Origin: a virus
Reading direction: 5' to 3' (one strand)
DNA length: 23,763 nt
IMG/VR virus record: IMGVR_UViG_3300025137_000292
Coordinates: 1-23,763 of that record
This document shows, in pieces, positions 1,786-20,155 of the stretch (the first letter of the stretch is position 1; every line of letters begins with the position of its first letter). The notes beneath the pieces are model-generated. The model did not search any database. It had not been told where the DNA came from and saw nothing but the letters and a program-made list of their open reading frames with translations. The position numbers and the translations under genes were made by a program.

Positions 1786-2816
1786 TGGCAAGTACATATA
1801 CAACAAATAGCGGCATAGAAAAGCCAGCCACAGGTGAACAAGCGGGTACTTGGGGTGCTACCACAAACACAAACTTTGATATTATAGACCGTTCTTTAAA
1901 TGGCGTTGGTACCATAAGCTTATCAGGAACAACACATACTTTGTCTACGACTGACGGCACTTTGTCTGACGGTATGTTTAGAGTTTTAAACATACTTGGT
2001 AGCCCTAGCGGGACTAATACAATAACAATATCCCCAAATACCGCAGATAAACTATATTTTGTATATAATGGTTCTGGTCAAACTGTTATTTTTTCACAAG
2101 GGGTGGGCTCTAATGTAAGCGTCCCTAATGGTGCCTCTAAGATAATTTATGCAGATGGAGCAGGGGCTGGTGCAGCCGTTGTTGATTTTACAAACCTATT
2201 ATCAATAGGTTTATCTGGAACAGCCGTAACTTCTACTGCCGCAGAGTTAAATATACTAGATGGTGTTACTTCGTCTACAGCAGAGTTAAACATATTAGAT
2301 GGTGTAACATCCACAGCAGCCGAACTTAATTATGTTGATACCACCGCAGGAACGGTTGCCGCCTCTAAAGCAGTTGTTGTAGATAGCAATAAAGATACTA
2401 GCGGTATACGCAACTTAACAATTACAGGAACCCTTAATAGTCAAACGCCTGCTCTATTAGCAACAGCGCAAGAGTTTACTAAAACGCAGAATTTTAATGA
2501 AACCACTTTAACAGATGCAAGCACAATATCTTGGGACGTTAGTTCTAATCAAGTTGCAAAAGTTACATTAGCTAATAACAGAACACTGGGACAAGCTACT
2601 AATCAAGTGGCAGGGGCTGTTTATGTTTTAACTATTATACAAGATGGAACGGGTGGTCGTACTTTAAATTACGATAGTGTGTACAAATTTAATGGCAGTA
2701 TACCCACAGTAAATGCTACGGCTAACAATAGAAGTATATTAGTATTTTTAAGCGATGGCACAAATATGTATGAAATTGGTCGTTCTTTAAATCCTAGCAC
2801 CGCAGGAACACAGTAA
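1785..2816 (+). CDS. Tail fibre protein (TAAELNILDGV repeat type)
   Basis: 343 residues. The start (MASTYTTNSGIEKPATGEQAG, then TWGATTNTNFDIID) is the usual opening of marine phage fibres. A region at about residues 148-186 has three copies of the TAAELNILDGVTS motif, a repeat common in phage fibres where it forms a triple-helical shaft. The C-terminal third (LANNRTLGQATNQVAGAVYVLTI to the end) resembles the beta-structured region in phage fibres that carries the 'G....L.I.QDGTGGRTL' pattern. The start overlaps the previous stop (TAATG), with GAGGAAG upstream. Receptor-binding or shaft role is inferred from family knowledge and position. Confidence 0.8.
   Translation: MASTYTTNSGIEKPATGEQAGTWGATTNTNFDIIDRSLNGVGTISLSGTTHTLSTTDGTLSDGMFRVLNILGSPSGTNTITISPNTADKLYFVYNGSGQTVIFSQGVGSNVSVPNGASKIIYADGAGAGAAVVDFTNLLSIGLSGTAVTSTAAELNILDGVTSSTAELNILDGVTSTAAELNYVDTTAGTVAASKAVVVDSNKDTSGIRNLTITGTLNSQTPALLATAQEFTKTQNFNETTLTDASTISWDVSSNQVAKVTLANNRTLGQATNQVAGAVYVLTIIQDGTGGRTLNYDSVYKFNGSIPTVNATANNRSILVFLSDGTNMYEIGRSLNPSTAGTQ
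2228..2340 (+). repeat. Three TAAELNILDGVTS repeats
   Basis: Three in-frame copies of a ~36-base unit encode STAAELNILDGVT, STAELNILDGVT and STAAELNYVDT. This repeat is well known in phage fibres and T4-like proteins. Its DNA copies differ mainly at third codon positions. Confidence 0.85.
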
Positions 2817-2818
2817 AT

Positions 2819-3349
2819 ATGCCTTTAACTAAACTACAGTTTAGACCTGGAATAAATAAAGAGATAACTTCTTATTCTAACGAAGGGGGTTGGGTTGATG
2901 GCGACAAAATTAGGTTTAGGTTTGGTTTTCCAGAGAAAATAGGGGGTTGGGATAAATACACTACCAGCACTTATCTTGGAACCCCAAGATCGTTACACGC
3001 TTGGGTCACTCTAGCTGGAGACAGGTATCTAGCCGTTGGCACAAGCCAAAAATATTATATTGAGTCGGGGGGATCTTTTAACGATATAACACCTGTTAGA
3101 CTCACGGTCCGACAGCCGTTTGGTGTTACTGGAGTAGCTTCAACTACTGGAATAGGAACAGCAACAATATTTCTTCCAGTGAGCGTAACTACCGAAACAA
3201 CAGGTGTTTCAGCGACTACTTCTCTAGGACTCGTTTCAGTTTCATTTGGAACAGGAGCCCCATTATTTGGCACTGGTTTTGTTGGAGATGTTAGTTTTGG
3301 AGGGGACGTCATCACACAAGAAAATCCAGTTGTTCCAGTAGGAGATTAA
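2819..3349 (+). CDS. Tail accessory (P22 gp10-like stabilisation) protein, N-terminal part
   Basis: 176 residues. Residues 1-95 (MPLTKLQFRPGINKEITSYSNE, then GGWVDGDKIRFRFGFPEKIGGW) are the conserved N-terminus of a large marine podophage protein that resembles the P22 gp10 tail accessory factor, which plugs the portal. In relatives, as I recall them, this continues without a break into the domain encoded by the next gene. Here, after 'NDITPVRLT', the sequence changes to about three VTGVASTT-type repeats like those of the 387-residue fibre, and ends with TAA. The next gene continues two bases later in another frame. It is therefore one half of a split gene, not a random fragment, because the second half has its own Shine-Dalgarno sequence. 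Confidence is high for the family and moderate for function. Confidence 0.7.
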   Translation: MPLTKLQFRPGINKEITSYSNEGGWVDGDKIRFRFGFPEKIGGWDKYTTSTYLGTPRSLHAWVTLAGDRYLAVGTSQKYYIESGGSFNDITPVRLTVRQPFGVTGVASTTGIGTATIFLPVSVTTETTGVSATTSLGLVSVSFGTGAPLFGTGFVGDVSFGGDVITQENPVVPVGD

Positions 3350-3351
3350 AT

Positions 3352-4986
3352 ATGGCTGACATATCTTTTTCCGTAACAGGATCCTCTGGTACAAGTGGTT
3401 TAGGGACTGTTGTAGCGTCGCAAACTTCTGTAACAGGTTTAATATCTTTTGCTACCACCTCTACTAGCACTACTGTAACAGTATCTCATGCATCACACGG
3501 AGCCGTTACAGGAAGTAGTGTTATCTTTTCAAACGTAACCTTTGGGTCAAGCTCCTCATATGATTCTTTAGTAACTCTTTTAACAGGAGAGTTTGTTATA
3601 ACAGTTCTTGGAATAAATGATTACACAGTTACACTTTCTTCCAATGCGGGGTTTGATTTGGTGGCTTCTGGAACAAGCGATGCAGACTATCTACTTAACA
3701 AGGGTAGTGTCTCTCAATTACTTGGAACAGGTTGGGGTGCGGATACTTGGGGCGCAGGAGGTTGGGGTCTAGCCGCTAGTGATGCCATTACGCTTGATGA
3801 GGGTCTAAGAATTTGGAAACAGGATAACTTTGGAGAAGATTTAATCTTACTTCCTAAAAATGGGCAATTGTATTACTGGGATAAAACTACTGGTTTAACC
3901 GACAGAGCTTTTCCTTTTTTAAGTAGAACGCCTGATGCGCCCACTGCAAACAGAAATGTCTTAGTATCAGATAGAGATAGACACGTTATAGTATTTGGCA
4001 CAACGCCTATTGGTAGCACTACTTTAGACCCACTTTTAATTCGTTTTAGTAGTCAGGAAGACCCCTTCGATTGGTTCCCTACATCAACAAATACCGCAGG
4101 AGATTTAAGAGTTGGATCTGGTTCCGAAATTGTAGCAGCTATTGAAACAAGGCGAGAAATTATAGTTATAACAGATACCAGTGTGCATTCTTTGCAGTTT
4201 ATTGGCGCACCTTTTACCTTTGGTATTTCTCAGGTTTCTGGAAACATTACAATAAGAAACACTAATGCTGCCATAGCAAACAATGATACAGTTTTTTGGA
4301 TGGGCGTGGATCGTTTTTACTTATACGATGGGCGCGTTCAACCCATACCTTGCACAGTGAAAGACTATGTGTTTGAGGATTTTGATAGCACCAACAGTGA
4401 AAAGGTTGTTGCTGGTCTAAATACTTCTTATGGAGAGGTTATTTGGTTTTACCCGTCTGCTTCAGGAAATACTGGAGAAAACGACAGATATGTAATTTAT
4501 AACTACGAGGAAAAAGTTTGGTATTATGGCAACTTAGCTAGGTCTGCTTGGTTAGACAGAGGTATATATGAATATCCTTTTGCCGCTACAAATGAATCTG
4601 ACTCTGTTTCAGCCTCCACCTTATATAGGCATGAGGTTGGTAATAACGCAGACGACTTAGCTTTGACCGCATTCATTGATTCTAGCCCTATAGACATAGC
4701 AGATGGAGAACAGTTTGCTTTAATCCGTAGATTTATTCCTGATATTGATTTTTCAAGCTCTACTACGGGTGCAACAAAAGAAGCTACTTATACGTTAAAA
4801 GGACAAAGATATCCCGGAACAGGGTTTACAACAAATGATGCTTTTACCGTTAGTAGCACCACTGAACAAAAAAACTCTCGTGTTAGAGGTCGCTCTTTTG
4901 GTATTAAAGTTCAAAGTAGTGGTTCTGGCGTTGCTTGGAGACTAGGCTCGAATCGTGTAGATGTTAAAACAGATGGCAGAAGATGA
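3352..4986 (+). CDS. Tail accessory (P22 gp10-like) protein, C-terminal part
   Basis: 544 residues. Residues 1-25 are one repeat unit (FSVTGSSGTSGLGTVVAS). Residues about 30-125 look like an inserted beta domain (TTVTVSHASHGAVTG). From residue 127 (TGWGADTWGAGGWG) onward is the main body of the marine podophage tail accessory protein: RIWKQDNFGEDLILLPKNG, DRHVIVFG, RREIIVITDTSVHSLQFIG, then VFWMGVDRFYLYDGRVQ. This body is predicted to be a beta-propeller-like fold. TAGGAGAT lies 7 bases before the ATG, so this half is translated in its own right. The stop overlaps the next start (ATGA). Together with the preceding gene it probably makes one functional tail factor from two chains; that is inference. 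Confidence 0.75.
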   Translation: MADISFSVTGSSGTSGLGTVVASQTSVTGLISFATTSTSTTVTVSHASHGAVTGSSVIFSNVTFGSSSSYDSLVTLLTGEFVITVLGINDYTVTLSSNAGFDLVASGTSDADYLLNKGSVSQLLGTGWGADTWGAGGWGLAASDAITLDEGLRIWKQDNFGEDLILLPKNGQLYYWDKTTGLTDRAFPFLSRTPDAPTANRNVLVSDRDRHVIVFGTTPIGSTTLDPLLIRFSSQEDPFDWFPTSTNTAGDLRVGSGSEIVAAIETRREIIVITDTSVHSLQFIGAPFTFGISQVSGNITIRNTNAAIANNDTVFWMGVDRFYLYDGRVQPIPCTVKDYVFEDFDSTNSEKVVAGLNTSYGEVIWFYPSASGNTGENDRYVIYNYEEKVWYYGNLARSAWLDRGIYEYPFAATNESDSVSASTLYRHEVGNNADDLALTAFIDSSPIDIADGEQFALIRRFIPDIDFSSSTTGATKEATYTLKGQRYPGTGFTTNDAFTVSSTTEQKNSRVRGRSFGIKVQSSGSGVAWRLGSNRVDVKTDGRR

Positions 4987-13003: not shown

Positions 13004-13450
13004 ATGAACTTAGTGCAAACTGAGTCTCTTTTGTCTTCTGCAACAACAGCCGAACTACAAATGCTTCTTATTGAAGCCAAGGATGAATTGCAGAAAACTC
13101 AAGAGAGAATAAAAGCAATAAATAACCAAATCACAACCAGATACCAAGATGCTGCTCAAAAGAAGCTTCATCAACAAGGTAAAGATTTTGGTTCCACAAC
13201 TTTATATGAGGGCAATCTTAAAATCCAATTTGACTTTAGAAAAAAAGTTGAATGGGATCAGGATAAACTTGTCACCATATTAAACAAATTAGATACAGAA
13301 ACAGCCAAGCATTACGCGACTGCTAAATACACAATACCAGAGGCGAAATATACTAATGCTCCACCAGAGATAAAAGGTGTGCTTAGTGAGGCTCGTACTG
13401 TTCACTTGCAAGGTGTATCAGCAAGTATTGAGGAGAATAGTAATGCTTAA
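13004..13450 (+). CDS. Conserved hypothetical protein of the recombination operon
   Basis: 148 residues, first gene after the strong promoter, with Shine-Dalgarno TAGGAGGT. Residues 15-50 (TAELQMLLIEAKDELQKTQE...) are a likely coiled coil. The C-terminal half has FRKKVEWDQDKL and ATAKYTIPEAKYTNAPPEI, which I have met beside Sak4-like ATPases in marine phages, but I know no biochemical function. The last eight bases overlap the next gene (ATGCTTAA). The operon suggests it assists recombination or ssDNA handling; this is inference. No metal-binding or catalytic motif is visible. Confidence 0.65.
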   Translation: MNLVQTESLLSSATTAELQMLLIEAKDELQKTQERIKAINNQITTRYQDAAQKKLHQQGKDFGSTTLYEGNLKIQFDFRKKVEWDQDKLVTILNKLDTETAKHYATAKYTIPEAKYTNAPPEIKGVLSEARTVHLQGVSASIEENSNA

Positions 13451-14312
13451 AATTATTAGTGCTGAAGACCGTTTAAAAGAAAAGCGCGGTCATAAAATTG
13501 TTGTGTGTGGCAAATCTGGCGTGGGTAAAACTACCCTCGTCAGAACGCTAGATACACAGAAAACTCTGTTCATGGACTTGGAGGCGGGAGATGCCGCGAT
13601 TGAGGGTGTAGCGGTAGATGTAATTCGCCCAAGAACATGGACAGAGTGTCGTGATTTCGCATGTCTATTAGGTGGTCCTAATCCATCTTTGTCTGATGAT
13701 ATGTGTTACTCACAGGCACACTATGATTTAGTTTGCCAAACATACGGAGATCCTTCTACATTTCTTTCAAAATACGATACTATATTTGTTGATAGCATAA
13801 CAGTAGCTGGTCGATTATGTTGGCTATATTGTCAAAATTCATCTGACAATAAGTCAGACAGAACAGGCAAAATAGATATTCGTAATGCTTATGGTATGCA
13901 AGGAAGAGAGATGATGGGTTGGTTAACTCACTTGCAACACATTCGAGATAAGAATGTAATCTTTGTTGGTATACTTGATACTAAAGTTGATGACTACGGT
14001 AGAGAGACATTTGAGTTACAAATAGAAGGCTCTAAAACTGGCAGAGAACTCCCAGGAATTGTTGATGAAGTTATTACGATGGCAGTTATGAACACTGATG
14101 AAGGTGCGCCATATCGAGCATTTGTATGTCAAACACTTAACCCTTGGAACTATCCTGCCAAAGATAGGAGTGGTTTACTTGAACTGGTTGAAGAACCTAA
14201 TCTTGGTAAACTTCTTGAAAAAATGAGTGGTGTTGTGCAAGATAAACCACTCGAATTCGTTAATCCAAATCAAATGACACAAACACAAGCAGAAGGAGTT
14301 ACAAATGCTTAA
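13443..14312 (+). CDS. P-loop ATPase, Sak4-like recombinase (AAA_24)
   Basis: 289 residues from the ATG at 13443 with GAGGAG upstream. An upstream start at 13377 would add residues unlike the family and overlap the previous gene by 74 bases. Walker A is CGKSGVGKTT (22-31), Walker B is DTIFVDS (112-118), and LMDLEAGD-like FMDLEAGD (43-50) fits the AAA_24/RecA-core phage family. Members such as Sak4 bind ssDNA and promote strand annealing or invasion with a partner ssDNA-binding protein, which here is the next gene. The C-terminus (about 250-289) is Gln/Asn-rich and probably flexible. Both ends overlap neighbours by eight bases, so the three genes are likely translated together. Confidence 0.85.
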   Translation: MLKIISAEDRLKEKRGHKIVVCGKSGVGKTTLVRTLDTQKTLFMDLEAGDAAIEGVAVDVIRPRTWTECRDFACLLGGPNPSLSDDMCYSQAHYDLVCQTYGDPSTFLSKYDTIFVDSITVAGRLCWLYCQNSSDNKSDRTGKIDIRNAYGMQGREMMGWLTHLQHIRDKNVIFVGILDTKVDDYGRETFELQIEGSKTGRELPGIVDEVITMAVMNTDEGAPYRAFVCQTLNPWNYPAKDRSGLLELVEEPNLGKLLEKMSGVVQDKPLEFVNPNQMTQTQAEGVTNA

Positions 14313-15339: not shown

Positions 15340-16359
15340 ATGTTAAGGCATGTTGATTTATGTTCTGGCATTGGTGGATTTAGCCTTGGCTTTGAATGGG
15401 CAGGATTATCCAAGCCAGTTTTATTTTGCGATATAGAACCTTGGTCGCGTAAGATTTTAAATAAGCACTGGCCTGATGTGCCAATTGCAGAAGACGTAAA
15501 GGAGTTAGCCAATGACCCAGCAAGACTTGTTCCAGAATGTGACATATTATCCTGTGGATATCCCTGTCAGCCATTCTCAGTCGCAGGATCTCAAAAAGGA
15601 GAAGCGGACCCTAGACACATCTGGCCTTACATCTTTAAAATTATTGCACAAAGACGACCCACTTGGGTCGTTTGCGAAAATGTTTATGGTCACATCAGAT
15701 TGGGGCTCGACAAAGTGCTTACTGACTTGGAAACCGAAGGCTACACCACAAGGACGTTTATTGTTCCAGCTTGCAGCATCAACGCGCCCCATAAAAGAGA
15801 TAGAGTCTGGATTTTGGGCTACACCAAACACAATGGATCATCTCCCACAGAGGTCAAAGGAGTCTCTGATAAGACAGGCGAACACGACTCGCAAGGGCAG
15901 AACCAAACCAGCGAATTTAAGGGAACAAGTAGACCCAGAAGTAGTGAAGATGTGGCCTACACCCAGAGCAAGCGACATAGAGGGGGGAATCCCACAGGGG
16001 ATAGAACTCAAGAACGGATCCTTCAGTCGGAAGAATCAGAAGGGCGAGAGATGGGGAGTGAAGCTGAAGGACGCAGTGAGTCATTCAGAGAAGATGTGGC
16101 CTACTCCGACAACCAGAGATCACAAAGGCGGATATCAGGGTGGGAGAGTGCGGAATGGGAAGATCAGCAACGATACACTGGACGTAGCAGTCCAATACAC
16201 GGACAATCAATCAAAGACTGGTGGTCAGTTGAGCCCAATTTTTGTCGAGTGGCTCATGGGGTACCCAATAGGGTGGACCGAATTAAAGGATTAGGCAACG
16301 CAATCGTGCCGCAAATCGCAATGCAAATTGGATTAACAATAAAGAAAATGGGAGTTTAA
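15340..16359 (+). CDS. dcm: DNA (cytosine-5) methyltransferase
   Basis: 339 residues. Methylates cytosine C5 using S-adenosylmethionine. Motif I is DLCSGIGGFSLG (6-17), motif IV is GYPCQPFS with catalytic Cys76, motif VI is ENV (113-115), motif VIII is APHKRDRVWI (149-158), and motifs IX/X are RVDRIKGLGNAIVPQ (311-325). The region between VIII and IX, where target recognition normally lies, is about 140 residues of polar low-complexity sequence (Ser, Glu, Arg, Gly) with a repeated DVAY(T/S) motif. That stretch is also the coding region of a second gene in another frame, which explains its odd composition. The phage also encodes an adenine methyltransferase, so anti-restriction is the likely purpose. 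The target sequence cannot be told. Confidence 0.93.
   Translation: MLRHVDLCSGIGGFSLGFEWAGLSKPVLFCDIEPWSRKILNKHWPDVPIAEDVKELANDPARLVPECDILSCGYPCQPFSVAGSQKGEADPRHIWPYIFKIIAQRRPTWVVCENVYGHIRLGLDKVLTDLETEGYTTRTFIVPACSINAPHKRDRVWILGYTKHNGSSPTEVKGVSDKTGEHDSQGQNQTSEFKGTSRPRSSEDVAYTQSKRHRGGNPTGDRTQERILQSEESEGREMGSEAEGRSESFREDVAYSDNQRSQRRISGWESAEWEDQQRYTGRSSPIHGQSIKDWWSVEPNFCRVAHGVPNRVDRIKGLGNAIVPQIAMQIGLTIKKMGV
15512..16294 (+). CDS. Gene nested in the cytosine methyltransferase (WPTP/EWLMGYPIGW protein)
   Basis: 260 codons, entirely inside the methyltransferase gene in the +1 frame. It has its own Shine-Dalgarno AAAGGAG at 15498-15504, seven bases before the ATG. Residues 50-90 read DPLGSFAKMFMVTSDW, then STKCLLTWKPKATP, then GRLLFQLAAS. 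Then come three modules with the core (W)(A/P)TP...D: FWATPNTMD (101-109), MWPTPRASD (147-155) and MWPTPTTRD (195-203). The end is SPIFVEWLMGYPIGWTEL. I recognise this layout from phage and mobile-element proteins encoded beside or within cytosine methyltransferase genes, often annotated only as methyltransferase-associated. No function is known to me; a target-recognition or anti-restriction partner role is speculation. Well-ordered, Trp-rich sequence and the ribosome site argue that this is a real gene. Confidence 0.75.
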   Translation: MTQQDLFQNVTYYPVDIPVSHSQSQDLKKEKRTLDTSGLTSLKLLHKDDPLGSFAKMFMVTSDWGSTKCLLTWKPKATPQGRLLFQLAASTRPIKEIESGFWATPNTMDHLPQRSKESLIRQANTTRKGRTKPANLREQVDPEVVKMWPTPRASDIEGGIPQGIELKNGSFSRKNQKGERWGVKLKDAVSHSEKMWPTPTTRDHKGGYQGGRVRNGKISNDTLDVAVQYTDNQSKTGGQLSPIFVEWLMGYPIGWTELKD

Positions 16360-16360
16360 T

Positions 16361-16447
16361 ATGGATTCTTTAAATACCGTTAATCTAGTTGGTATAGGTT
16401 ATTTAGTTTTTTTATTTTTATTTATTTTATATGTATGGAGAAGGTAA
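16361..16447 (+). CDS. 28-residue single-span membrane microprotein
   Basis: Short reading frame starting one base after the methyltransferase stop, with GGGAG (16350-16354) six bases before its ATG. It encodes a polar head (MDSLNTVN), one hydrophobic segment of about 18 residues (LVGIGYLVFLFLFILYVW) and a terminal RR, the positive-inside pattern of a membrane peptide. Its stop overlaps the next start (TAATG). Such peptides can be holin helpers or spanin-like lysis factors, or regulators, but I cannot tell which. It is short enough to be chance, although the two flanking couplings support it. Confidence 0.45.
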   Translation: MDSLNTVNLVGIGYLVFLFLFILYVWRR

Positions 16448-16972: not shown

Positions 16973-17178
16973 AAGAAGTGGCAAAAATTTTTGAAACAAT
17001 AGGTTGGGAAAAAAGACTGTGCGATTTAAGCAAAGAACAGGTTCTTGGAACAATAGCTAAAATACAGTCAATGAAGGGCTTAGAAGATGAGTATACAGAA
17101 CAAGGAGTATTGGAGTTACAACAAGAAGTCGAAGACAAGCTTCGTGACTTCTCCGATGACGACTACATACCATTTTGA
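16933..17178 (+). CDS. Small hypothetical protein (DUF6511-like pattern)
   Basis: 81 residues, with GAGGAAG eight bases before the ATG inside the end of the preceding gene. Residues 18-50 (AKIFETIGWEKRLCDLSKEQVLGTI) recall the DUF6511 pattern of short phage proteins ('LGW.KPL.DLT.DEV..LI'), but the likeness is weak. It is helical and acidic, ending DDDYIPF. The next gene starts 23 bases before its stop and has no ribosome site of its own, so this gene probably carries the downstream nuclease by translational coupling. Confidence 0.55.
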   Translation: MQSDNARQSDNALKEVAKIFETIGWEKRLCDLSKEQVLGTIAKIQSMKGLEDEYTEQGVLELQQEVEDKLRDFSDDDYIPF

Positions 17179-17875
17179 TCTGATTAAACAAATAGCCGAA
17201 CATATTGATCAGGGAATTGTTCAGGAAAATAACAAGAGAACTCCCAGAACATATATAGGAGGCTCCTCTCTTGGAAATGATTGCGCTCGTCAAGTCCAAT
17301 ACCGCTATATGCAAACTAAAAAAGATGAGGACTTTCAAGCTAGAACTCTTAGGATATTTGAATTCGGGCATCATATCGAGGATATGATTGCTGGTTATTT
17401 AAAGAACGCTGGCTTTGATTTAAGGACACATAGCACCAAAGGCGAACAATTTGGTTTCTCGGTGGCTGATGATCAGATTAAAGGTCATATAGACGGTGTT
17501 ATATGTGGAGGCCCTGTCAAGATGGACTATCCGTTCTTATGGGAATGCAAATCAGCTAACAGCAAGAAGTTTGGGGAATTTGTTCGTAAAGGCGTTACAC
17601 AAGCTAACCCAACTTATGCAGCACAATTAGCGCTTTATCAAACATACATGGATTTAATGGACTACCCAGCGCTATTTACCGTTATGAATAAAGATACTTC
17701 AGAACTTTATTATGAGTTTGTTCCGTTTAATGCAGAACTAGCGCAAAAAATAAGTGACAGGGGAGTAGAAATAATAAAAGCCACAAGAGCAAATGAAATG
17801 CTACCTCGCATTGCAAATGAGTCAGATTATTTTACTTGCAAATTTTGTGACTATCGTAATACTTGTTGGACATAG
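17156..17875 (+). CDS. PD-(D/E)XK exonuclease with Cas4/AddB-type iron-sulfur cysteines
   Basis: 239 residues. Probable DNA exonuclease or nickase of the RecB/Cas4 class. Catalytic core: Asp113 in KGHIDGVI, Glu130 and Lys132 in WECKSAN, and Gln157 in AAQLALYQ. Four cysteines (Cys43 in GNDCAR, and Cys228, Cys231 and Cys237 in CKFCDYRNTC) match the split [4Fe-4S] arrangement of Cas4, AddB and Dna2. The start at 17156 has no Shine-Dalgarno and is coupled to the previous gene. An earlier ATG at 17087 has GAAGGG upstream but would overlap by 92 bases and add an unlike N-terminus. With the Sak4-like ATPase and ssDNA-binding protein it forms a recombination set. It ends at a terminator. Confidence 0.85.
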   Translation: MTTTYHFDLIKQIAEHIDQGIVQENNKRTPRTYIGGSSLGNDCARQVQYRYMQTKKDEDFQARTLRIFEFGHHIEDMIAGYLKNAGFDLRTHSTKGEQFGFSVADDQIKGHIDGVICGGPVKMDYPFLWECKSANSKKFGEFVRKGVTQANPTYAAQLALYQTYMDLMDYPALFTVMNKDTSELYYEFVPFNAELAQKISDRGVEIIKATRANEMLPRIANESDYFTCKFCDYRNTCWT

Positions 17876-17942: not shown

Positions 17943-17987
17943 ATGCATATAAGGACAAATGAAGAAAACCTTACAGGTACAATATAA
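17943..17987 (+). CDS. 14-residue leader peptide coupled to the primase-helicase
   Basis: A 14-codon frame (MHIRTNEENLTGTI) with its own Shine-Dalgarno (AAAGGAAAAG, 17930-17939). Its TAA at 17985-17987 overlaps the ATG of the primase-helicase (TAATG). The large gene has only a weak AGGT ribosome site of its own, inside this leader. Ribosomes finishing the leader would therefore restart on the large gene, a simple way to set its level. The peptide itself may have no function. Confidence 0.5.
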   Translation: MHIRTNEENLTGTI

Positions 17988-20155
17988 TGCGTATTGCACC
18001 CTTTGACAACACTAAATCTAGTGATCCGCGTTATTTAGTGGAACATATTAGCGACAGTGTTCCATCTCATGTTCAGGTACAAACGCTAAAAGATACTTTT
18101 CCAAATGGAATCATTCGGGGCAATGTTTTTTACATTGGCTCAATGTATGGTGAACGTGGCGAATCTATGAAAATAGATATTAATCCTAGTAGCCAAAACT
18201 TCATGCGCGGTCAGGACTTCAACGGAGGTACTGGTGTCGGGGGTATTGTAAAGATACTCATGGAGGCACGGGGCATGAAGCTGCATGAAATAAAAGATAT
18301 GTTCGGGTCTTACCTGGAAACAGCGCCAGTAAGAACGCGAACAAATTCATCCAGCACTACGCCTCCTTGGTTACAAAACCCAGTAAACCAGCAGGCACAA
18401 GAAAATGTTCGGGTTAAAACTACCATTGATATTAATACTGCTTATACGCAGGAATGGAATTATATTAGCAAAGATGGTGAAATAATATGTTCAGTTAGGC
18501 GTTATGATATTGAGGGTAAGAAAGAATTTAGACCATTCCTACCAAACAATACCTATTCCAAAGCACCTGAAGTTAGGCCACTATACAATATACCGAACAT
18601 ATTAGGTGCCAAGCAAGTAATATGGGTAGAAGGTGAGAAGTGTGCTGAAGCTTTAATAAAATCGGGATATGTAGCAACTTGCACGTTGGGAGGCGCTGGT
18701 GCATTAACTAGAAACAACTCCCATAAGTATGATTTCACGCCACTCAGGGGAAAAGAAGTTATTTTATGGCCTGATAATGATGAAGCTGGTAAGCGCTTGG
18801 CTGAAATTGTTCGGGATATGTGTGTAGATGTTCAAGCTTCTTCAGTAACAATGCTCAAGCCACCATTTGATAAGCCAGAAAAATGGGACTCAGCAGATGC
18901 AATAGCCGAACAATTTGATATAAAGGCGTTCATTGATAAAAATTCCCAGTTTAAAACCAGAAGTATTAATCTTCTTGATGATAGCTTACTTATTGACCGT
19001 TTCAGTGGGAAAGCACCTGTTCAAGATTTCTTAATAGATAGTACGTTCCCATTGGGCATACCGATTATATTTTCTGCGGCTGGAGATGCTGGTAAAGGCA
19101 TGATGACTCTGGATCTTGGTATGAAAGTATCTTCTGGTTTTCCTATGCAAAATGCATTTGGCGGTATCGTTAAAGAGCATGGTGACGTTGTTATATTTAC
19201 CGCAGAGGATGATGAGTCAGAAGTTCACAGACGTATCGAGAGAATGGATCCGTTTGAAAATAGAAGAACATTCAAGCATAAGCTTCATATTGTGCCATTG
19301 CCTAATGTAGGCGGTACATTTCCTATACTTAGCGAAATAAATGGCGAGTATATTGTCTCAGACGAATTTAATCGTATCCATGACCAGATGTTACAGATGG
19401 AAAACTTAAAATTAGTTGTGTTTGACCCACTTGCGTCTTTTGTTCACGCTGATGTGAATTCTGACCCTGCGGCAGGGGCTGCCTTTACTGGTCTTATGGC
19501 TAGGGTCGCAACAGAAACAGGGGCAAGTATTATAGTATGTCACCATATGACTAAATCGGGCGATAAGCCTGTGTCATCACCAGAGCAAGCCCGTAATCTT
19601 ATTCGGGGTACTTCTGCATTGGTTGATGGTGTGCGCTCGGCATTTGCCCTATGGCAAGTCGAGGAAGGAGAGGCTAAAAAAAGATGTTCTGCTCTCGGCA
19701 TAGGTTACGTCAGAAACATATGTTTTGATGGTGCTATAGTGAAGTCCAACGGACCAGCAGAAAGAAAAATACGAAAATTTGTTCGGGATTTAGACAGCGG
19801 TTTGCTGGTAGATAATACACAAGCACTAGAGGCGGTAGAAACATCTAATGAGCGAGATGTTAAGCTAAACGCTTTGTATAACTGGATTGAGCTATGTGAG
19901 CGTAATGGTCGGGCTTTATGTCAAAAGACAGGGGCTGATTCAATCATAGAGCGATTGGACGATGCGAATGCACCAACTACATTACAAAACATCTCTCAGG
20001 CAACAATAGATAGATATGTTCGGGAATTAATACAGACAAGGCGTATTGCGAAGTATTCATTCACGGCAACAGGAGGCAGTAAATGGCTTGGAACCACACA
20101 AGGCGTAATGTCTAATGGCGAATATCAAGCGGTTACTGCAAGAGACAACGCATAA
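17987..20155 (+). CDS. TOPRIM primase fused to RepA-like helicase
   Basis: 722 residues. The N-terminal third has FNGGTGVGGIVKILMEARGM (79-98), seen in primase-helicases of this kind. A TOPRIM domain follows: VEGEKCAEAL (214-223) with Glu216, and DNDEAG (263-268) with the metal-binding Asp-x-Asp. The C-terminal half is a RecA-fold hexameric helicase (AAA_25/RepA type): Walker A region FSAAGDAGKGM (362-372), Walker B LVVFDPLAS (476-484), and VCHHMTKSG (518-526) as the usual sensor region. The Walker A motif lacks the normal first Gly and the Ser/Thr after GK. No zinc-binding cysteine cluster is seen at the N-terminus. It probably unwinds and primes phage DNA. Eleven TCGGG motifs lie in this gene in several reading phases. 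Confidence 0.88.
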   Translation: MRIAPFDNTKSSDPRYLVEHISDSVPSHVQVQTLKDTFPNGIIRGNVFYIGSMYGERGESMKIDINPSSQNFMRGQDFNGGTGVGGIVKILMEARGMKLHEIKDMFGSYLETAPVRTRTNSSSTTPPWLQNPVNQQAQENVRVKTTIDINTAYTQEWNYISKDGEIICSVRRYDIEGKKEFRPFLPNNTYSKAPEVRPLYNIPNILGAKQVIWVEGEKCAEALIKSGYVATCTLGGAGALTRNNSHKYDFTPLRGKEVILWPDNDEAGKRLAEIVRDMCVDVQASSVTMLKPPFDKPEKWDSADAIAEQFDIKAFIDKNSQFKTRSINLLDDSLLIDRFSGKAPVQDFLIDSTFPLGIPIIFSAAGDAGKGMMTLDLGMKVSSGFPMQNAFGGIVKEHGDVVIFTAEDDESEVHRRIERMDPFENRRTFKHKLHIVPLPNVGGTFPILSEINGEYIVSDEFNRIHDQMLQMENLKLVVFDPLASFVHADVNSDPAAGAAFTGLMARVATETGASIIVCHHMTKSGDKPVSSPEQARNLIRGTSALVDGVRSAFALWQVEEGEAKKRCSALGIGYVRNICFDGAIVKSNGPAERKIRKFVRDLDSGLLVDNTQALEAVETSNERDVKLNALYNWIELCERNGRALCQKTGADSIIERLDDANAPTTLQNISQATIDRYVRELIQTRRIAKYSFTATGGSKWLGTTQGVMSNGEYQAVTARDNA

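Follow-up and report, generated by a model that had tools for sequence, protein, structure and literature searches.

The closest described systems are C5-cytosine DNA methyltransferases divided between two polypeptides. M.EcoHK31I and M.EaeI are heterodimeric C5 methyltransferases for YGGCCR and belong to restriction-modification systems. The original work on M.EcoHK31I is reportedly that of Lee, Kam and Shaw (1995). Its β subunit is read from an alternative frame inside the α gene, and M.EaeI is alike. The α and β genes of M.AquI overlap only slightly. Single-chain C5 enzymes have a folded domain for target recognition between motifs VIII and IX/X, which split members lack. The Bacillus phages SPR, phi3T and rho11s have multispecific C5 methyltransferases, in which several short recognition units, one per target, follow one another. 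To our knowledge, phages and bacteria seldom have dual-coding genes that are long, fully nested and deeply conserved.

According to one study (PMC3404938), the large subunit of M.EcoHK31I contains motifs I-VIII and X, motif IX alone is in the small subunit, and the enzyme is cited as needing the two proteins. The same study places the predicted recognition domain in the larger subunit. It describes M.AquI with motifs I-VIII in one chain and the distal variable region with motifs IX and X in the other (PMC3404938). Classical C5 recognition domains are marked by the TL motif, P(STCA)PT(ILV), upstream of motif IX (PMC2413257). Finally, the ShiLan domain is an out-of-frame HNH insertion in actinophage methylases (PMC11855218). 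Open-licence papers on overlapping genes in methyltransferases yielded no description of the nested arrangement in a phage.

The window analysed here is a stretch of 23,763 nucleotides from an uncultured marine phage (IMG/VR record IMGVR_UViG_3300025137_000292). The α and β features described below are on its + strand. The outer gene, α, is a C5-cytosine methyltransferase ORF of 339 aa (15340-16359), in which a disordered spacer separates motifs I-VIII from motif X. It matches PF00145 (Pfam DNA_methylase, E=8.5e-39, residues 3-336), phrog_363 (E=9.3e-72) and NCBIfam dcm. Motif I, PCQ, ENV, motif VIII and motif X follow in order, and PCQ, ENV and LGN are invariant in the α alignment. The catalytic part, supported by the Pfam match and AF2, consists of residues 1-165 (15340-15834), with PCQPF at 15562-15576 and ENV at 15676-15684. 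The spacer comprises residues 166-295 (15835-16224). Motif X, GLGNAIVPQ, is located at 16288-16314, and its L318, G319, N320 and P324 are invariant in the same alignment. AF2 gives residues 1-165 a mostly confident fold (pLDDT block means 61-97). The pLDDT of residues 166-295 is below 50 throughout, so there is no evident recognition domain in α.

The nested ORF, β, occupies 15512-16294 in the +1 frame relative to α. It starts with ATG, encodes 260 aa, opens at α codon 58 and ends 22 codons ahead of the α stop. The original prediction, made from the sequence of the window, had placed this 260-codon frame wholly within the 339-codon methyltransferase gene, with a ribosome site AAAGGAG seven bases before the nested ATG. 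Both statements are correct, and the ribosome site is at 15498-15504. The profile search recommended there matched β to phrog_1008 (E=1.1e-31) over most of its length, residues 3-258 on profile positions 31-281 of 329.

Proteins of the β type present a conserved core (residues 30-106), then 1-8 cassettes, then the motif GxLNPxFVEWLMGYPxGWT. In the window, the N-terminal core lies at 15599-15829; it is conserved in the alignments, and both frames are constrained there. Cassette 1, WATPNTMDHLPQRSKESLIRQANTTRKGRTKPANLREQVDPEVVKM (15815-15952), belongs to the largest cassette cluster, with 66 proteins. Cassette 2, WPTPRASDIEGGIPQGIELKNGSFSRKNQKGERWGVKLKDAVSHSEKM (15953-16096), is of a type that resembles cluster 7, present in 15 proteins. 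The type of cassette 3, WPTPTTRDHKGGYQGGRVRNGKISNDTLDVAVQYTDNQSK (16097-16216), also occurs in the nested frames of N15 and Kosakonia phage Kc259. The C-terminal motif, TGGQLSPIFVEWLMGYPIGWTEL (16217-16285), is the proposed motif IX and has the strongest nested-frame constraint. The three (W)(A/P)TP modules, the EWLMGYPIGWTEL ending and the correspondence between MWPTP in β and DVAY(T/S) in α, all pointed out beforehand, are seen in the sequence.

By PHROG match, the neighbouring genes encode a Sak4-like single-strand annealing protein (13377-14312), a Cas4-domain exonuclease (17087-17875) and a primase/helicase (17987-20155). It means that the α/β pair is part of a replication and recombination block. 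Directly past the methyltransferase gene there is a 28-codon ORF, MDSLNTVNLVGIGYLVFLFLFILYVWRR (16361-16447), which reads as a single-pass membrane peptide.

We propose, with a probability of about 0.82 and on sequence evidence, that the window encodes a C5-cytosine DNA methyltransferase of two subunits, and that the nested ORF is the genuine gene of one of them, β, with the cassettes and motif IX. The α subunit would supply S-adenosylmethionine binding and catalysis (motifs I-VIII), as well as motif X. The β subunit would be translated from its own ribosome site, and its N-terminal core is perhaps the part that binds α. Likewise, β would supply motif IX and exchangeable target-recognition cassettes of ~40 residues, three of them here. 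The two chains may assemble into one enzyme. It would mark the DNA of the phage and probably have more than one target sequence; the purpose could be escape from host restriction. Between its motifs VIII and X, α would have no recognition domain, only a passenger sequence dictated by the β code.

In a test against chance, the methyltransferase was recoded synonymously 5000 times, and its synonymous codons were permuted 5000 times. The longest +1 frame had 240 codons in the recodings and 258 in the permutations; the observed 261 was never reached in the 10,000 trials. The +2 frame was as expected (35 codons observed, against means of 32-44 in recodings and permutations). The +1 frame of the permuted methyltransferase is stop-poor, with 136 open codons on average and a maximum of 258. 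The permutation margin is narrow (258 versus 261), so chance is not dismissable from the single sequence, and the comparative evidence is stronger.

Both frames are open in all 158 viral loci examined. Eighty of 80 were found with the nested protein and show the same +1 offset in the methyltransferase ORF. The other 78 of 78 were newly fetched with the methyltransferase, among its best 80 matches, so the statement covers this clade and not all C5 methyltransferases. This second search used the methyltransferase alignment alone, to avoid selecting for the nested frame. In these 78 loci, the nested frame is open for 167-497 codons, and the +2 frame contains 11-42 stops. Stops in the nested frame beside an intact methyltransferase were proposed earlier as a check, and no member of this clade presents them (80/80 and 78/78 open). 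Most bacterial and MAG loci, from many phyla, have both frames open too. Relatives at 30-40% identity retain the nested frame. The arrangement is also present in phage N15 gene 58, Paenibacillus larvae phages, Lactobacillus phages and MAGs of many phyla. The classical enzymes of phi3T, RB43, Javan346, CHPC148 and Chantilly show many stops in the +1 frame. A ribosome site of at least 5 nt before the nested ATG was found in 70% of the 158 unique nested proteins, compared with 7% for other ATGs in the same genes. On this comparative evidence, the nested ORF is a real gene.

The nested protein had been described earlier as a type found next to phage methyltransferases. The association stands, but "next to" is too weak, as the protein is nested as a rule. 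Candidates for a stand-alone, non-overlapping gene (Lacticaseibacillus R9.1 and Lc-Nu, Kosakonia Kc259, Komagataeibacter phiKX1 and Paenibacillus Paisley) were all nested on three-frame reading. The public annotation of Kosakonia phage Kc259 gives the nested CDS only (1926-2417, "hypothetical protein"); the α ORF around it (1439-2527) is unannotated.

The actinophage relatives present the same parts in other arrangements. In mycobacteriophage Moonbeam, the single chain of gp69 runs from motifs I-VIII through PTP cassettes and LHPAFPEWMMGWPAGWV (EWMMGWPAGWV) to motif X. Phontbonne gp79/gp78 and Murai gp6/gp5 consist of two ORFs, and the second contains the cassettes, the same C-motif and motif X. 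The C-terminal half of the single chain is thus homologous to β: phrog_1008 matches Moonbeam residues 203-366 (4e-49), Phontbonne gp78 (4e-79) and Paenibacillus phage Rani gp51 (1.6e-74). PHROG 1008, which was built by others, unites the nested, split and single-chain forms under the annotation "DNA methyltransferase". For Rani gp51, the depositors labelled the nested frame "g50 Internal gene". The open-licence literature yielded no function, dual-coding evidence or subunit role for PHROG 1008 or the Rani gp51 type. In the tree, the classical enzymes are separated (97/93) from a single group that contains the nested, split and single-chain forms. The actinophage forms adjoin the nested ones of Spikelee and SBP4phi2, and the tree does not settle the order of events.

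The C-motif of β is proposed as motif IX from its place in the single-chain relatives. We initially discounted the likeness of EWLMGYP to motif IX of M.HhaI (MGYP), because GGGG/CCC runs give G and P in both frames. The working identification was accepted only once the single-chain and split actinophage forms had shown the C-motif before motif X. The motif IX match of Moonbeam to M.HhaI scores -3.9 and is not significant alone. Since the same cassettes and C-motif are present in the actinophage chains, the nested protein is most likely the part with the recognition cassettes and motif IX, supplied in trans. It also means that a function can now be proposed where the original prediction knew none. 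That prediction had placed the nested region where target recognition is expected, and this agrees with the actinophage relatives, where one reading frame joins this segment to the catalytic domain or to motif X.

Some loci differ in their details. In Gordonia phage Gmala1, only the catalytic half is annotated (1471-2010). An unannotated β ORF follows after 2010 in the +1 frame, with PTP cassettes, an EWIMG motif and motif X. In Moonbeam (1486-2589), the catalytic frame contains all cassettes but the first (LPTPRGSAERTS...), which has stayed in the +1 frame; it looks as though an indel fused both genes part-way. A Clostridia MAG and an Oscillospiraceae MAG present the catalytic part, the C-motif and motif X in an unusual frame order. 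Judging from the sequences, indels may have reshuffled which ORF carries which motif; decay or sequencing error are also possible. A Flavobacteriales MAG (2567-4223) has two adjoining copies: the first consists of α parts and the nested core, without the C-motif, and the second ORF has a nested-type core and the C-motif. In the Lokiarchaeota MAG CP070831 and a Caldithrix MAG, the C-motif and the α end, in short ORFs, are all that was detected, and the gene pair seems to survive there as remnants only.

The cassettes have a median of 40 residues, and most begin with W(P/A)TP. We grouped 500 cassettes into 131 clusters. One type appears twice within a protein in just 1 of 149 proteins. Cassette types are common to enzymes with catalytic parts merely 25-45% identical, and the carriers of cassette 1 have α catalytic parts down to 29% identical. 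Rarely repeated within a protein and yet common to distant enzymes, the types are exchanged between enzymes and behave as recognition cassettes, not as tandem repeats. The last cassette starts a median of 39 residues ahead of the C-motif. We also considered the cassettes as a classical target-recognition domain by the TL motif. This was rejected, because the strict form P(STCA)PT(ILV) occurs in only 1.6% of the 500 cassettes; the shorter P(STCA)P occurs in 62%. An AF2 model of β from 59 homologues was of low confidence (mean pLDDT 50, pTM 0.25). The β profile had no match among PDB chains up to E=10, and no Pfam family matched β.

These last results would suit a nested protein that is real and conserved but has another role, such as anti-restriction or regulating or chaperoning the methyltransferase, and has only its DNA in common with it. 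No fold, Pfam or PDB match links β to recognition domains, and the cassettes depart from the classical TL motif. We find this explanation unlikely, since a single-chain methyltransferase has the same cassettes and C-motif in its own frame, after motif VIII and before motif X, and in the split forms they are in one ORF with motif X. Moreover, every locus fetched with the methyltransferase has the nested frame (78/78, among the best 80 matches), and the AF2 model of α has no folded region left for recognition.

Next is the selection on each frame. We estimated the divergence by codon position in 23 disjoint pairs. At positions 1, 2 and 3, it was.042,.032 and.166 in the methyltransferase-only codons, and.135,.036 and.058 in the overlap codons. 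The overlap pattern is the signature of a frame shifted by one, where the third position of the nested frame varies. We also estimated the ratio of nonsynonymous to synonymous changes in 53 disjoint pairs, counting for each frame the changes silent in the other frame only. The nested frame had ratios of 0.39 in the N-terminal core, 0.29 [0.20-0.42] in the cassettes and 0.18 in the C-motif. The purifying selection on the nested frame, whose absence would have spoken against the original prediction, is therefore present (0.18-0.39). As a control, the virtual +1 frame in the non-overlapping 5' part gave 1.14 [0.93-1.43]. The methyltransferase frame had 0.27 in the core, 0.78 [0.62-1.04] in the cassettes and 0.33 in the C-motif region. 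It means that both proteins are constrained over the catalytic part and the end, but in the cassettes the methyltransferase frame is near neutrality. The view that the shared region is shaped by the nested protein is borne out by these cassette values. The near-invariant Trp of the nested C-motif shows the same dependence in single codons. It is TGG because α uses GTG there, in 120 of 158 cases, compared with 27% of the Val codons elsewhere. Where α switches to ATG or CTG, the nested TGG is retained.

These ratios bear on the possibility that the α spacer is the target-recognition domain and β contributes motif IX only. So it is worded for M.EcoHK31I, whose predicted recognition domain is placed in the larger subunit (PMC3404938). 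For the window, we consider this quite improbable. In the cassette region, α is near neutral (0.78) and β is constrained (0.29). A folded domain between motifs VIII and IX/X is absent from the α chain by AF2 (pLDDT <50 for residues 166-295) and by this near-neutrality. In the single chain of Moonbeam, it is the β-frame reading of the cassettes that joins the catalytic domain.

Motifs VIII, IX and X are in frames 0, +1 and 0, and two shifts would give the canonical order. One chimeric enzyme could then arise by ribosomal frameshifting, from α to the nested frame and back. This is very improbable: it requires two shifts, a conserved ribosome site and an ATG stand ahead of the nested ORF, and the nested N-terminal core is itself selected (0.39). 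Hardly credible, finally, is an untranslated by-product of low-complexity α sequence, which the stop-poor +1 frame (permuted mean 136 open codons, maximum 258) would favour, against the nested-frame selection (0.18-0.39 versus 1.14 outside the overlap), the conserved ribosome site, the Trp kept as TGG through GTG, ATG or CTG in α, and the nested frame retained at 30-40% identity.

Compared with the known systems, the proposed two-subunit enzyme resembles M.EcoHK31I in its architecture. Motifs I-VIII and X are in the larger subunit, and motif IX would be in a second polypeptide. In the window, β is encoded within the α gene in another frame, a trait shared with M.EcoHK31I. Unlike the literature on M.EcoHK31I, we would put recognition in β, as an array of exchangeable cassettes, given the selection ratios, the AF2 model and the single-chain relatives. 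M.AquI (CYCGRG), with motif X in β, has the arrangement of Phontbonne gp79/gp78 and Murai gp6/gp5 and not that of the window. Motif X of the window is in α, so the locus is not of the M.AquI type; motif X is in β only for the actinophage loci L214, L215 and L217. The SPR, phi3T and rho11s enzymes are like the window in their serial recognition units. However, they are single chains in one frame, and phi3T has a +1 frame full of stops and falls in the classical clade of the tree. The ShiLan insertion is likewise a second protein out of frame within a phage methylase gene. Nevertheless, it is a mobile homing-endonuclease insertion, and β looks essential and is found throughout the enzyme clade. 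For cloned Paracoccus prophage m5C enzymes of relaxed specificity, membership in this type was considered and dropped, because the related enzymes have ~700 aa (PMC3925955, PMC5537653). A two-subunit split with a separate motif IX was already known from M.EcoHK31I. The breadth among phages, and the specificity in a nested and shuffled array of cassettes, look new.

Hosts of the phages with the nested pair include enterobacteria, Paenibacillus, Lactobacillus, mycobacteria and marine bacteria, among others. These pairs are mostly unannotated, or one frame is annotated in place of the other. We lean towards a wider statement, less firmly than for the window itself: a large class of phage C5 methyltransferases may be obligate heterodimers written twice in one DNA. 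The +1-frame array of swappable 40-residue cassettes would be the recognition subunit, and the would-be recognition domain of the catalytic subunit would be a neutral passenger. If this is true, the set of protected sequences of each phage could be read from its list of cassettes. Codon optimisation or synthetic recoding of α would silently destroy β. If β carries the specificity, many phage methyltransferases are annotated with half of the enzyme missing, and predictions of specificity based on α would mislead. In that case, a swappable cassette code for DNA recognition would become testable in simple E. coli assays.
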